NCBI RefSeq assembly: GCF_000205025.1
Contig: NZ_GL883675.1
Coordinates: 1 to 64,000 of the forward strand
Direction of reading: 5' to 3'
Length of the DNA: 64,000 bases
Source: Parasutterella excrementihominis YIT 11859
GTDB taxonomy: Bacteria; Pseudomonadota; Gammaproteobacteria; Burkholderiales; Burkholderiaceae_F
How positions within the stretch are numbered: the first letter of the stretch is position 1; every line of letters begins with the position of its first letter. Shown piece by piece: positions 30,475 through 36,866 of this stretch. Made by a program: the position numbers and the translations under genes. Under the pieces are notes generated by a model. That model saw only the letters and a list, made by a program, of their open reading frames with translations. It made no database searches and had not been told where the DNA came from.

Positions 30475-31041
30475 TTAATTGAGACGGGGCTGTTGCCAAT
30501 TAATATCGGTGCTTTGGTTTGCCACGCCTTCCTTGAGTTCGGACTCAAGGCCTTCTTCGTCGTTGGTTAATTGACCAAATTTCTTTAATCGGTCCAAAGC
30601 ATTCAGCATTGTTCTTGCGCCGTGTTCTCCGACGTAAATGTCCATATCGTCGCAGCCGTATTGATTTTCTTCCATGGCTGCCAGCGCAGAAGAAGCTGCC
30701 TCATATCTCTTAGTTAACTGTCGGAAATCTTCTTCGAGAAAAACCATCAGTTCCAAGACGGCAATATAAGGCGTCCCGGAAAGCTCCGGATGTTTGACAA
30801 AAACCGTAAAGACTTCAGTCAGCATCTCATCAACTTCTTTTCTGGTGCTATAGAGCTCGTCGATATGATTTTCGGCGACTTCCATAAAATCGTCTAAGTT
30901 ACTGTAGTCTTCCGGCTGAGGCGTATGTCGCTCATACGATTGTATTCTTCCGTTCGCCATCGCATGAACCTTATGGCCTTCTTCTATCATCTTTGCCAGG
31001 TCAGGCGTAGTTTTAAATTTCTTTATTTCGATCTTTTTCAT
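30475..31041 (-). CDS. Unknown acidic protein, first gene of the tadA operon
   Basis: The 188-residue protein is acidic and mostly helical in pattern, with no signal peptide or membrane segment. It opens with a basic stretch (MKKIEIKKFKTTPDL) and then is rich in Glu and Asp. I do not recognise the family. The ATG at 31041 has no Shine-Dalgarno, but a TATACT box ends seven bases upstream, so the transcript could be leaderless. It heads the series unknown-tadA-ldcA-hybrid kinase. Confidence 0.75.
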   Translation of the reverse strand: MKKIEIKKFKTTPDLAKMIEEGHKVHAMANGRIQSYERHTPQPEDYSNLDDFMEVAENHIDELYSTRKEVDEMLTEVFTVFVKHPELSGTPYIAVLELMVFLEEDFRQLTKRYEAASSALAAMEENQYGCDDMDIYVGEHGARTMLNALDRLKKFGQLTNDEEGLESELKEGVANQSTDINWQQPRLN

Positions 31042-31308
31042 GGCCAAAGTATAAACGAGTTACCTGCTTAGCATATTAACGCGCGGACCTCGAAGACGAA
31101 GGTAAAGCCGTGCGAATCGAGTAAGTTGGATGCCTTAACGCACTAATATTTCATTCTCAAGGAACTTTCGCGAGAACCTTTTTTCCCCAGAGGAACGTAC
31201 TCATGTTCCAAAAAGAACAAGAAGTCATTCTAAAAAACACTTGAACTTATTGATAAGTAAATGCAAAAAGCAATGATTAAACTTACGATATAAACTTTCT
31301 ATTATTTT

Positions 31309-34300
31309 TCAAAGGGTTACTCGAGATCTGATTTCGGTTTCAATATCCAGCCTTTCAGCTTCACATTCATATGTATAGACCATCGACATCAACAAAGATG
31401 AAGAAACGAAAGGGTGTGTAAATTGCAACGCATCTGCCCAAACGCGGTACTTGTTCGCAAGTTCACGCTCTTGAGCTCCGCCTTTACCGCAAAAATGAGC
31501 TCCGCGAGAATTGAATAAACCCATGTGTGCCCCTCTACTTATAAACTGAGACCGAATGTTCTCCATTACATTGCGAACAGCTTCATCGGGCCACACTCCG
31601 TCCTCCCCAACTGGAGCGTGAGAGAACAGATTTCCAAGCCACTCGTCCGCCACCTCAAGACGGTCGAGGTCTGCACAAGCTCGCCTCACTGCTTCAACCC
31701 ATTTAGATAGTTTCTCCTGCTGTTCTTTTTTAGTAGCTTCATTTAGACCTGGAATGCGTTCAATGGCTTCTAAAAAACGGTAACCGCACTGGGCCAAACT
31801 GTCTTTATCTCCCTCAATGAGATCTTCTCCACCATTCTTGCGTTTGTATGTCCAAACTATAGCCTGAACAAACAGTTCAGGATGTTGCTCTGTGTACAGT
31901 TCAAGGTTGGGAATCCCGTGCTTATCTTCTCCTCTTGAGGAAACATCAAGTATGCCAAGATATGAGAATTCCAGCCTAGCCTTTTCCTCTAAAGAGAGAT
32001 CTGATTTACGATCGAGAAGCTGGAAGGCTTCTCGAACGTCATAGCTGTTCAACAGGTACTCCCCTTCTTTGTCCTGACCATTCTTCAACATGTCAGATAA
32101 CATCTGAATAATGAGTGACGGATTTATTTTTTCTAGATTGAAACGCACCGATGCAAATGCTGCTCTTGGACGTTTAACTTCAAGCAGTCGACGAATGCTC
32201 TCATTGTTTTCCTCAAATGAGTCAAAAGAATATTGAGGAATTACTTCAACCCAGTAACCATTCCTGGCTTCAGCCGAAAGTTGATCTACAATTTCCCAAG
32301 TAGAGGCTCTATACGGCGATAGAAGCAACAATCGAAGTAATTCCTCTTCAGAAATCTTATTCCGAAGGCTTGCGAGCATAGCTTTCCTTCTGTCCTTATT
32401 CAACGACCAGAGGGCTCCTGCTAAGATTTCATTAAGAGAAAGACAATTATTTTCTGAGCGCAAGCACGTTAAGATCAAGTCCTGAACCCTCTCGGCAGCG
32501 AGTACGTCGGACACTAAGTACGCGCCAATTAAGCGTCGGGAATTTCCTCTTTCTGAGAGTTCAAGAATGCCAGGGATTCCACGCTCTCGTGCAATTTCCG
32601 TTAAAGCATCTATTCGGAGCCTTTGTACTTCTTTTTCTCGCGTTTGGAAATCCTCTTCTTCCACAACTCCTTCAACTGTCCCCTCGAACCATACCTGGCG
32701 AAACAGCCACTCATAGTTGTTCAGAATGTCTTTGGGAAGCAATTCATCATAAACTTCCTTGGCTTTCTTTTTCAGAAACGCTTGACTTTCATCACCTGCC
32801 CATTTATGTCCTCGACGAGAGAGAACAGCCACACGAATTTTCTCGCGTACCTTGGCAATATCTTCGTCTGGAGCACCTGAGATACGCCAATCTTCAATGA
32901 TCTTCCAAACACGCTCCTGATCATTTAGCACGAGCACATGTAACTTAGATACAAGATCACATAGCATTTCGGGAGTATAGGTCTGTCTAGTAAGTACTAA
33001 TTCGATCATCTCCCGCTCCGACGCATGGATCTTTTCAAACGTCATTAGAGGTTCTCCGTACCCATAGCCATCACGACGCCACTTGGGTTTATAGTTGTAC
33101 CGACCGATCCGTGTCCCGTAATCCTCCATCTGTTTAAGACAAACTCGCCAACCGACTACTGGATGCTTGTCCAAAAGCATCTTAACCGCTCTCACTCGCA
33201 TTTCTTGATCAGCCGCTGTCTGCGGCATCCATACTCGAAGAATGGAGCTAAGCGATTCAAATGGTTTATTCACCCAATTATCATTAATCTCTACCTCTGA
33301 GAGCCGTCCCAAAATGTTCACTACTCTTGGAAAGGTGTGAGGATTCCAAGCTAGTGCCTCAAGGGCCCAAAGTAACCCAGTGCGTGGACAAGTGCTAAAT
33401 ATCCAAGTACCAACAGGTCTTAATAAACCCAACACCTCAGAATTATCTGATTGCAAATCTTGCTCGATGATATTGAGAAACGCCCTCGGAGCAGCCTCTG
33501 CATAAAGGGGAAGGTCTCGATTATTAGCCTCTAACTTTCTAGTCGTTAGGGGCATAAGAAGCTCACGGACAATTTTTGCCGCCTCCAATGCCCCATCAAA
33601 ACCGAGGTGTTTACCAAAAAGGTCCTTGCCATGCACGGCTAACAGAACCAAAGTCTCGGAAATGCCTTCTCGCAATACTCCAGAAAATTCTCGCTTTTTC
33701 CCATATAGACCAGCCGCCCATCGTTCCTTTTCCGGCAAGTCGAGCGCCGGATCATCTTCACCCAATACGATTTGCGCAATCTCAAGAAAGCGATAAAGAT
33801 CAGCTTTAGAGACACTACCTTTAATTGCGAAAATTGCATCTTTTTTGGAAATTACGCCTCGCAAATTACCAAGGGACCAGACTGGGGAATCGTTAAGCTG
33901 CAATAAATTAAGAATGCGTTTTTCCAACAATTCATAAGAAGAAACCTCGGCTAGAAGAGAAAGCAATGTTCGATCCGCTTCGTTCTGAGCATCCCATGTC
34001 CCAGCAAGAACCAGGGGAACCATATCAGATGCAATTCTTGAATCATCAGCCCATTCAGGTGTTCCGATGGCGGGAACATTCGAAAGTTGACGCCGAAGCA
34101 CAGTCAAGGAACGCCCTGAAGCCTTCTCTAATACTGCTATGTCATCTCGAGATTTTCCCATTGACTCCAGCGCTTTCCTGAAGGGTTCAGTCCCAAGCGG
34201 TTCCAAAACGATATCGGACTTCACCCGGGCGGCATTTCGCGGATAGACAACTATGGAGCGCAACATTGTGCAGTAAGGTGCAAGCTCACGTTCCACCTCA

Positions 34301-35115
34301 CGAGTATGGGCTACTACAATGAAATCAGTAGTTTCTTGTGCAATTTTGGGAAGTATTTCCGTCTTGTCGAACACCAGCACTCGATCCCGATACTGTTCAA
34401 GCTCTGGAATATCAAAGACCTGTTTTAAAAAAGCTAGTGCCTCTTCCATAGAGTCAGCCGTTATTACTAACGGCTTTGAGTCGCATTTCTCAAAGAAAGA
34501 CTTGATCTCACAATTCCACGCTTGGATCGCAGTAGCAAAAAGAGAAGAATGAAGGTAAGGATCCGTCACGTTTGCCCAGTCAGCCCAACAACGCTCTAAG
34601 GTTCTGACACCATCGGAAGGGCGCCCCGTCTCGTTTGCAAACCAGATTCGGGACGAGACTGATTGCTCCATCCACTGTTCTAGATCACTTGCGTCATATG
34701 CACGAATGTCTTTCCAGAGATTCTTGCCCTTCATCTTCTTGACCCAATGGACTTTGCCTTGCCAGCGTCTCGGAGTGACAAAAACAAACGTAATATTTCT
34801 TCTTTCAGCGTCGTTAGTCGCTCTAACACTTTTTTCAAAATCTCCGTCTGCCTTCTTTGTGATGCTCTCCGTAACACCGAACTCCCAACCAGAAATACCA
34901 TCTGGTATCCAAGCATTACTTGAGCTTGTTTCTAAGAAACCGTCCCAGCCTGGACGCTCGGCATCGTCGTTTCCTGGAAAATCCACTTTTTGAAGTTCAT
35001 GTCCTGTTGATTGAATAAGCTTACGTAGAAGCACGGCTAACTGGGTACGCGCATGAATTGAAGTTGTAAACCAGTTTATGAGTTCGTTCGCTTGGGTGTT
35101 TAAAAAATGAGGCAT
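31309..35115 (-). CDS. Large orphan protein with restriction-endonuclease-like N-terminal domain
   Basis: This 1268-residue protein is not a named family to me, but its N-terminus (residues 1-160) has a strongly patterned module: LLRKLIQSTGHEL, PGWDG (Asp58), GWEFG (Glu78) with Lys87/Lys88, VFVTPRRW (111-118) and DASDLEQWME (141-150). Asp, Glu and Lys in this order suggest a PD-(D/E)XK nuclease fold with a shifted Lys. Residues about 213-345 alternate strand and helix (LVITADSMEEALAFL, RVLVFDKTEI, FIVVAHTREV) like a NTPase core without a P-loop. The rest, about 370-1268, is helical and repeat-like. There are no membrane segments. The ATG at 35115 is chosen by the look of the N-terminus; a TTG at 35163 is open. 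It stands alone between guaA and the tadA operon, as a gene-sized insertion would. Confidence 0.8.
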   Translation of the reverse strand: MPHFLNTQANELINWFTTSIHARTQLAVLLRKLIQSTGHELQKVDFPGNDDAERPGWDGFLETSSSNAWIPDGISGWEFGVTESITKKADGDFEKSVRATNDAERRNITFVFVTPRRWQGKVHWVKKMKGKNLWKDIRAYDASDLEQWMEQSVSSRIWFANETGRPSDGVRTLERCWADWANVTDPYLHSSLFATAIQAWNCEIKSFFEKCDSKPLVITADSMEEALAFLKQVFDIPELEQYRDRVLVFDKTEILPKIAQETTDFIVVAHTREVERELAPYCTMLRSIVVYPRNAARVKSDIVLEPLGTEPFRKALESMGKSRDDIAVLEKASGRSLTVLRRQLSNVPAIGTPEWADDSRIASDMVPLVLAGTWDAQNEADRTLLSLLAEVSSYELLEKRILNLLQLNDSPVWSLGNLRGVISKKDAIFAIKGSVSKADLYRFLEIAQIVLGEDDPALDLPEKERWAAGLYGKKREFSGVLREGISETLVLLAVHGKDLFGKHLGFDGALEAAKIVRELLMPLTTRKLEANNRDLPLYAEAAPRAFLNIIEQDLQSDNSEVLGLLRPVGTWIFSTCPRTGLLWALEALAWNPHTFPRVVNILGRLSEVEINDNWVNKPFESLSSILRVWMPQTAADQEMRVRAVKMLLDKHPVVGWRVCLKQMEDYGTRIGRYNYKPKWRRDGYGYGEPLMTFEKIHASEREMIELVLTRQTYTPEMLCDLVSKLHVLVLNDQERVWKIIEDWRISGAPDEDIAKVREKIRVAVLSRRGHKWAGDESQAFLKKKAKEVYDELLPKDILNNYEWLFRQVWFEGTVEGVVEEEDFQTREKEVQRLRIDALTEIARERGIPGILELSERGNSRRLIGAYLVSDVLAAERVQDLILTCLRSENNCLSLNEILAGALWSLNKDRRKAMLASLRNKISEEELLRLLLLSPYRASTWEIVDQLSAEARNGYWVEVIPQYSFDSFEENNESIRRLLEVKRPRAAFASVRFNLEKINPSLIIQMLSDMLKNGQDKEGEYLLNSYDVREAFQLLDRKSDLSLEEKARLEFSYLGILDVSSRGEDKHGIPNLELYTEQHPELFVQAIVWTYKRKNGGEDLIEGDKDSLAQCGYRFLEAIERIPGLNEATKKEQQEKLSKWVEAVRRACADLDRLEVADEWLGNLFSHAPVGEDGVWPDEAVRNVMENIRSQFISRGAHMGLFNSRGAHFCGKGGAQERELANKYRVWADALQFTHPFVSSSLLMSMVYTYECEAERLDIETEIRSRVTL

Positions 35116-35235
35116 ATAACTGTATGAGTTTTTAACCAGACACTGTGTTATTGGTCGGGTCAACGTAAATAGCAGATAAAAGGCAATGGAAACAAATAGA
35201 TTTTAAAAAGAAGCCCTTGTTAATTGATTTTAAAC

Positions 35236-35268
35236 AAAAAAAACGGGATAACCAATTGATCATCCCGA
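35236..35268 (-). terminator. Terminator of guaA
   Basis: On the minus strand CGGGAT and ATCCCG pair around a 12-base loop and are followed by eight T residues (A-run 35237-35244 on the plus strand). Confidence 0.8.
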
Positions 35269-35300
35269 ATGCTTAAGAAATAGCTAGAAATTCAATATTT

Positions 35301-36866
35301 TTATTCCCACTCGATCGTTGCGGGGGGTTTGCCAGATACATCATAAACGACGCGGTTAATACCCTTAACCTCGTTGATGATGCGGTTGGAAACCTTGCCA
35401 AGAAGATCGTATGGCAGATGAGCCCATTTAGCGGTCATAAAGTCGCTGGTCTGAACAGCTCTCAAGCTGACAACCCAGTCGTATGTTCTACCGTCGCCCA
35501 TCACACCGACGCTCTTAACCGGCAGGAAGACAACGAAAGCCTGGCTGACTTTGTCATACCAACCTGCATTGCGAAGTTCTTCAATGAAGATCGCATCAGC
35601 TTCTCTCAGAAGATCGGCGTATTCGCGTTTAATAGCGCCGAGAATACGAACGCCGAGGCCGGGACCAGGGAAAGGATGACGATAAACCATTTCGGCAGGC
35701 AGTCCCAGTGCGATACCGAGTTCACGAACTTCGTCTTTGAAGAGTTCGCGAAGCGGTTCGAGAAGCTTCAGATGAAGTGTATCGGGCAAACCGCCGACAT
35801 TATGGTGGGACTTAATGGTTTGGGCTTTCTTGGTCTTGGCGCCGTTGGATTCAATGACGTCAGGATAAATGGTGCCCTGTGCGAGCCACTTAGCATTCTG
35901 CAGTTTTTCAGCTTCTTCCTGGAAGACTTCGACAAACAGACGACCGATGATCTTACGTTTGGCTTCAGGATCGGTAACACCGGATAACGCATCCATGAAC
36001 CGGTCGGAAGCATCAACCACAATCAGCTTCATACCCATATTGTCACGGAAAGTCTGAGCGACCTGTTCTCTTTCGTGAAGACGAAGCAGTCCGTTGTCTA
36101 CGAAAACGCAGGACAGCTGATCGCCGATCGCGCGATGAATCAAAGCCGCCGTAACGGAAGAATCGACGCCGCCGGAAAGACCGAGAATAACTTCATCTTT
36201 TCCAACCTGATGACGAATTTTTTCAACGGCTTCCTGAGCGAAGTTGCCCATGACCCAGTCGGGAGTGGCCTTGCAGATCTTAAGAACAAAGGTCTCAAGG
36301 ATTTCACGGCCCTTCTCGGTATGCGTAACTTCGGGATGGAACTGGACAGCGTAAAAGCCTCTTTCCTCGTCAGCCATACCGGCGATGGGGCAAGTCGGAG
36401 TCGAGCACATCAGTTTGAAGCCGGGAGGCATTTCAGTGACTTTGTCGCCGTGGCTCATCCAAACCTTCAGATAGCTCTTGCCGTCTTTATCAGTAAAGTC
36501 GGAGATGTTCTTCAAAAGTTTTGTGTGGCCGTGCTCACGAACTTCTGCGTAGCCGAACTCACGCTGAGCGCCGCTTTCAACTTTGCCGCCGAGCTGCTCA
36601 GCCATTGTCTGCATGCCGTAGCAAATGCCTAAAACCGGAACGCCGATTTCAAAAACGGCCTTCGGAGCGCGGTCCGTGGATTCTTCATAAGCGCTCATGT
36701 GAGAGCCGGAAAGGACGATGCCGCTCGGCTTGAATTCTTTAATAAATCCATCCGATACGTCGCAGGAGTGGACTTCGCAGTAAACGTGAGCTTCACGAAT
36801 ACGGCGCGCAATCAATTGCGTGACTTGGCTTCCGAAGTCAAGAATTAAAATTCGATCGTGGTTCAT
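35301..36866 (-). CDS. guaA: GMP synthase (glutamine-hydrolysing)
   Basis: GuaA aminates XMP to GMP. The 521-residue protein has a class I amidotransferase domain (LGICYGMQ with nucleophile Cys, and [11 protein letters not shown] with His/Glu), an ATP pyrophosphatase domain with the P-loop LSGGVDSSV, and the C-terminal dimerisation domain ending with [16 protein letters not shown]. The length is typical. It follows guaB in the same direction with a gap of about 100 bases and no strong terminator between, so the two are likely one operon. Confidence 0.97.

Follow-up and report, generated by a model that had tools for sequence, protein, structure and literature searches.

The 64,000-nucleotide stretch of Parasutterella excrementihominis YIT 11859 analysed here (contig NZ_GL883675.1, positions 1 to 64,000; hereafter the window) encodes, on its minus strand between guaA and tadA, a 1268-residue protein that is read, with a probability of roughly 0.7, as a horizontally acquired member of a single-protein immune-receptor family related to PD-Lambda-4_A and, by fold, to Avs3 and Avs4. 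The open reading frame (31309..35115) had an ATG start and zero internal stops; initiation at the TTG codon at 35163 instead would lengthen the protein by 16 residues. The protein was composed of an N-terminal nuclease-like domain, a middle pseudo-STAND domain and a C-terminal alpha-solenoid, and lacked the helix-turn-helix (HTH) domain of its close relatives. The predicted antiphage role is well supported by the homology to PD-Lambda-4_A, the fold match to Avs proteins, the swapping of effector domains, the mobility of the gene and the defence genes found beside its homologues.

Component A of PD-Lambda-4 (PADLOC PDLC03991) is a validated defence protein from a functional selection (Vassallo et al. 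2022, PMC9519451). In a profile–profile alignment by hhalign, the window family and the PD-Lambda-4_A relatives were matched over 1057 columns, collinear from nuclease to solenoid, with a probability of 99.2 and an E value of 3.5e-19. Because this alignment joins both families, the window family is regarded as distantly related, as a sister without the P loop, to a protein of validated antiphage function. The system had been called undescribed in an earlier reading made from the sequence alone (the sequence-only reading), which does not wholly hold in view of a homology that covers nearly the whole length. The relationship was hardly visible in direct searches. Pfam, NCBIfam and PDB sequence searches gave nothing useful for the window protein or its profiles. 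PADLOC returned for it a single weak match, to the PD-Lambda-4_A model at residues 538–661 (E 1.9e-5), and most of its relatives scored nothing with that model.

The sequence-only reading had picked out this open reading frame and an ordered series of motifs, PGWDG, WEFG with a Lys pair, FVTPRRW and LEQWME. These were present in the order PGWDG, WEFG...KKAD, FVTPRRW and DLEQWME and were among the best-conserved positions of the family; the minus strand is added here. Residues Trp57, Asp58, Gly59, Trp77, Glu78, Gly80, Lys88, Ala89, and Asp92 were invariant or nearly so in 19 homologues, across which DLEQW was also invariant. The residues D, G, W, E, G, K, A, and D were still invariant in an 11-member set with 22–29% identity to its first member.

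The AlphaFold2 model of residues 1–440, built with 28 sequences, had a predicted local distance difference test (pLDDT) value of 90.3 and a predicted template-modelling score (pTM) of 0.86. It contained helix 22–37, strands 41–45, 59–63, and 73–79, helix 85–99, and strands 108–113 and 136–140, so that the first 150 residues followed the alpha-beta-beta-beta-alpha-beta order of PD-(D/E)XK enzymes. Asp58 (34942–34944) preceded strand 2, Glu78 (34882–34884) ended strand 3, and Lys88 (34852–34854) opened the next helix; these three are the putative catalytic residues. When the model was searched with Foldseek, the top PDB match was Avs3 with terminase (E 2.3e-6, probability 1.00), followed by Avs4 with portal (E 7.7e-5), then by RFC clamp loaders and the STAND proteins NRC1 NB-ARC, Apaf-1, Dark, and CED-4. 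In a viral fold library, the only further matches were RFC-like or restriction-enzyme-like. Together with the conserved residues, the modelled fold suggests that residues 1–160 (34636..35115) form a nuclease domain of the PD-(D/E)XK type, probably with nuclease activity. The suspected nuclease-type N-terminus was thus supported by both the order of elements and the Avs3/Avs4 matches, and the fold search, made with residues 1–440 as one model, did not speak against a nuclease fold there.

The middle domain (residues ~190–345; 34081..34548) was assigned to a STAND/AAA-like Rossmann fold by the AlphaFold2 model, Foldseek, and hhalign. Avs proteins are STAND ATPases, and the P loop is a defining feature of both Avs and PD-Lambda-4 proteins. 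At the P-loop position, however, no Walker A motif was found by pattern search in any member of the window family examined; the position read ADSxEEALAF or a diverged form. In the window protein, DSMEEALAF (residues 221–229; 34429..34455) stood in place of the GLSGVGKT of PD-Lambda-4_A. Pattern matches to Walker A did occur in the family, all elsewhere and unconserved, and in the window protein within a helix (residues 309–318). The latter, ALESMGKS at residue 315, was rejected as a Walker A motif, as it is helical, lies away from the P-loop position and is not conserved. The Rossmann-like part without a P loop, as proposed from the sequence, was therefore borne out by STAND-fold matches and by the missing Walker A, and the domain appears to be a STAND fold no longer able to bind nucleotides. 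It was followed by a helical bridge, possibly winged-helix-like (residues 346–440; 33796..34080), in which the shared sensor module begins.

Residues 346–1268 were modelled as an all-helical solenoid with a pLDDT of 84.7 and a pTM of 0.60, which agrees with the roughly 900 helical residues anticipated at the C-terminus. The HEAT-like alpha-solenoid proper, a putative sensor, occupied residues 441–1268 (31312..33795), and its Foldseek matches were to HEAT/ARM-type solenoids, that is, to HEAT-type solenoids in general. In a scan of viral contigs, residues ~335/362 to 1231/1256 were found fused to an unrelated N-terminus without an NTPase domain (L054–L058 and L064), so that the middle domain was entirely absent from this variant. 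The swapped N-terminus was GGGGVHFEAHVQASF...DGFDTDDL...LLGQIKHS, which we take to be a Cap4-like nuclease; Pfam gave no match. It was also read as VHFEAHVQASFVALMLTGG...DGFDTDDL...LLGQIKHS, on the viral or prophage contigs L054:5152-8742, L055:644-4189, and L058:5131-8694 as well as L056, L057, and L064. In L062, the C-terminal module occurred nearly by itself. The occurrence of the module with another N-terminus, and almost alone, is the pattern that a sensor with interchangeable effectors would show, and the exchange suggests a modular effector/sensor design. On two further viral contigs (L048:5557-8684 and L051:5557-6150), a broken family copy was observed in frame behind a phage-protein-like N-terminus, MTVDQQRQAFVAQLLGMTGN..., and may be a decayed fusion.

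The gene was patchily distributed. Homologues were present in 6 of 61 relatives, 16 of 399 genomes of the order and 10 of 5426 E. coli genomes, and on 23 plasmids, 12 of which were typed as conjugative. In one genome of the same taxonomic family (G014, L003:1219-5309), the homologue was broken near residue 1130 into two reading frames that overlap, by a frameshift or a sequencing error. The window protein was 65–69% identical to the homologues of Enterobacter (69%), Lonsdalea, Aeromonas, and Litchfieldella, with which it also grouped in a tree that left their inner order unresolved, as against 41% to that of the same-family genome G026. Judged from these identities, the gene was probably acquired horizontally.

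The locus itself was consistent with mobility. The guaA 3' end, ACGATCGAGTGGGAATAA (35301..35318, minus strand), contained the octamer GAGTGGGA, published as the core at which GIsul2 islands integrate (PMC9376610). The E. coli HS homologue was the last gene in an island with an integrase, RepA, trbJ, and trbL, located between guaA and yfgI, and in Enterobacter and Litchfieldella it directly followed guaA. A copy of the guaA 3' end, GAGTGGGA, lay ~115 bp after the gene in E. coli HS (L026), Lonsdalea, and Litchfieldella, with attachment (att) copies in L008, L020, and L026. In Litchfieldella (L020:5955-18335), three guaA-type att sites were observed, one behind guaA itself, one behind the family gene and one at a second guaA 3' fragment, which places the single gene between att sites like a minimal cassette. 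In the window, a second GAGTGGGA att copy was absent, as was an integrase at the locus, and no convincing direct repeats flanked the gene. The gene was also absent from the same-genus genome G002, in which an interval of ~0.9 kb with an integrase-like remnant separated guaA from tadA, and other genes occupied this interval in G026. The G002 interval (L074:6740-7583) held, after guaA, a broken tyrosine-integrase-like N-terminus, MLTDKKINQLTPKEMQYKFADREGLYLLVYPT, as a trace of an earlier island. The comparison of this interval among relatives, proposed in the sequence-only reading, thus revealed variation in the presence of the gene. The claim that the gene stands alone between core genes was right about guaA and tadA; the interval is not an undisturbed one, since the guaA 3' end is an integration hotspot and a 190-residue protein is encoded toward tadA (30475-31047, minus strand). 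The latter had no Pfam or PADLOC match. It is probably an original neighbour of tadA, since a weak homologue (23%) in G001 (L073) also adjoins a tadA-like gene.

Nearly all close relatives, at 50–69% identity (Enterobacter, E. coli HS, Aeromonas, rhizobia, and others), carried ~95 extra N-terminal residues with an HTH of the Xre/HigA type. Directly upstream of many HTH-bearing homologues was a palindrome of the type GTGTAATGTG-N-CACATTACAC. Among 17 upstream regions tested, seven scored above all 200 dinucleotide shuffles and several others were weaker; the palindrome was not significant against the shuffles in L012, L014, L024, L025, and L046. Long, near-perfect palindromes were located at L010:7673-7700, L013:7661, L017:277, L020:7667, and L008:3546. 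The upstream palindrome is a probable operator on sequence grounds, through which the HTH-bearing relatives may regulate themselves. RefSeq names proteins of 1365–1370 residues (L026:9722-13819, E. coli HS ECHS_RS13060, protein WP_000128902.1; L027:152-4264) 'HigA family addiction module antitoxin'. The name describes only the first tenth of the protein, because it rests on the HTH in the first ~66 residues, and in the two loci with annotation, those of E. coli HS and S. baltica, no HigB gene adjoined the family member.

In the mechanism proposed, the C-terminal alpha-solenoid would bind something made by a phage or plasmid or arising from infection, and this trigger would assemble or unlock the N-terminal PD-(D/E)XK domain, the putative effector, which would then cut DNA. 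The middle STAND fold without a P loop would probably serve as a structural hinge or an assembly surface, not as an ATPase switch. In close relatives, the fused Xre/HigA HTH would bind the palindromic operator upstream and probably repress its own promoter. The family as a whole is cargo of mobile elements, notably of islands at the guaA 3' end, and the window copy, located at that site, has lost its HTH, operator, and promoter region. It is suggested tentatively, as an idea somewhat more apt to fail than to hold, that such proteins form a widespread STAND-like class of immune receptors without nucleotide switching, in which dose control by a repressor domain, fused in the close relatives and acting on their expression through a conserved palindrome, restrains the nuclease in place of ATP gating. 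If the family is immune, ATP binding is dispensable to an NLR/Avs-type layout, a point relevant to the triggering of STAND receptors. In that case, a set of large proteins of E. coli, Shewanella, and rhizobia, named at present 'HigA family addiction module antitoxin' or 'helix-turn-helix transcriptional regulator', would become testable defence genes, and guaA islands are marked as carriers of such genes.

Several observations weigh against an intact immune receptor in the window. The canonical lysine two residues after Glu78 was replaced by a glycine, and Lys88 is only a presumed stand-in for it. The Foldseek TM-scores to Avs3 and Avs4 over the entire 1–440 model were low (0.25–0.30), so that the likeness holds domain by domain; such values would be expected of differently arranged domains in the model. 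Genes beside homologues included Olokun OloA, PDC-S71, PDC-M04A, PDC-S33, a UvrD helicase scoring as GajB, and restriction-modification methylases, and this evidence is weighed down by the breadth of the UvrD-type and methylase models. The neighbour enrichment was modest, and 2 of 10 core genes of the window used as a control also matched PADLOC weakly. In the literature, no papers naming homologue accessions were found. A further objection concerns the window copy itself, which was without the HTH of its close relatives. The 185 bp between the guaA stop and the gene (35116..35300, minus strand) contained neither an operator palindrome nor a promoter match, no ribosome-binding site was visible there, and no HTH remnant was detected upstream of the ATG in any frame. 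A hairpin followed by T8, resembling an intrinsic terminator (35244..35267, minus strand), was located between guaA and the gene. HTH proteins elsewhere in the genome were separate, small, and only 31–35% identical to the Enterobacter HTH. With the HTH, promoter, and ribosome-binding site missing, the window copy may not be expressed. The view that this copy is a pseudogene in decay, derived from a mobile-element gene by 5' truncation and inert in a family that is real, falls just short of even odds, and the loss of a second att site fits it as well. However, all 1268 codons were intact, of the 177 leave-one-out invariant sites only 3 deviated in the protein, a count that falls inside the span of full-length members and is no worse than that of several, and full-length members without the HTH exist among distant relatives (L006, L029, L049, and L059–L061). 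The copy is 5'-truncated, and it is about equally likely that the truncation is recent, with the gene on its way to becoming a pseudogene, or that the gene is still used from an unusual signal; in sum, it is probably impaired. The sequence-only reading was blind to the usual N-terminal HTH of the family and may accordingly have drawn attention to a broken example.

The remaining alternatives concern the family. A restriction-like protein, whose solenoid recognizes modified or incoming DNA directly and which cuts without sensing a phage protein, would account for the PD-(D/E)XK domain; HEAT-like solenoids are able to bind nucleic acid, and a location on conjugative elements would suit the exclusion of competitors. 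It is unlikely, as the nearest folds, Avs3 and Avs4, sense phage proteins. Still less likely is a regulatory or toxin–antitoxin module that stabilizes the island or plasmid and has no antiphage role. The Xre/HigA HTH, the palindromic operator, the location on plasmids and islands, and, in E. coli HS and Lonsdalea, an upstream gene with a PIN domain fit such a module, but the PIN gene was not conserved in most loci, distant members had no HTH, and the ~1270 residues beyond the HigA-labelled part followed the fold order of Avs/PD-Lambda-4; to our knowledge, there is no toxin–antitoxin precedent for this remainder. The position between conserved genes might suggest a housekeeping gene at a fixed locus, a role that was rejected on comparison of the relatives as scarcely credible, given the low count of relatives with a homologue and the integrase-like remnant in place of the gene in G002. 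An immune receptor of the Avs/PD-Lambda-4 kind thus remains the preferred reading of the family. The fold order foreseen in the sequence-only reading stood, as did the missing Walker A; the homology to PD-Lambda-4_A and the island site had not been foreseen, and the antiviral function it proposed is still drawn from the architecture.

PD-Lambda-4 is a two-gene system with a second component (component B). No such partner was found beside the window gene, whose neighbours were guaA and the 190-residue protein. The likeness to PD-Lambda-4_A extended over near-full-length collinear homology, with a nuclease-like N-terminus, a STAND domain, a helical C-terminus, and a similar size (~1280 residues), whereas the identity in the profile alignment was ~14%. 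The PD-Lambda-4_A relatives had a P loop (GLSGVGKT, GISGMGKT, or GEAGLGKT) and the nuclease motif DGGID...FQxKK; the window family had no P loop, a WDG...WExG...K motif, and usually an added Xre HTH. The proteins of the VHFEAHVQASF...QIKHS type shared the C-terminal module of ~900 residues but differed in their N-terminal probable nuclease and had no NTPase-like domain whatsoever. The GIsul2-type islands shared the attachment site GAGTGGGA at the guaA 3' end, where the E. coli HS island carries a family gene; the window retained the gene alone, without an integrase or a second att copy. In Avs3 and Avs4 (PDB codes 8dgc and 8dgf), an N-terminal nuclease is followed by a STAND domain and a helical-repeat sensor, as in the window family. 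Compared with Avs and other STAND NTPase immune receptors, however, the window family kept the STAND-like fold without the Walker A motif, and its solenoid resembled generic HEAT solenoids instead of those of Avs. Because the defining P loop was tested for and absent, the window protein is a member of neither Avs nor PD-Lambda-4; listed in neither PADLOC nor Pfam, it is most suitably classed as a variant of the Avs/PD-Lambda-4 kind.

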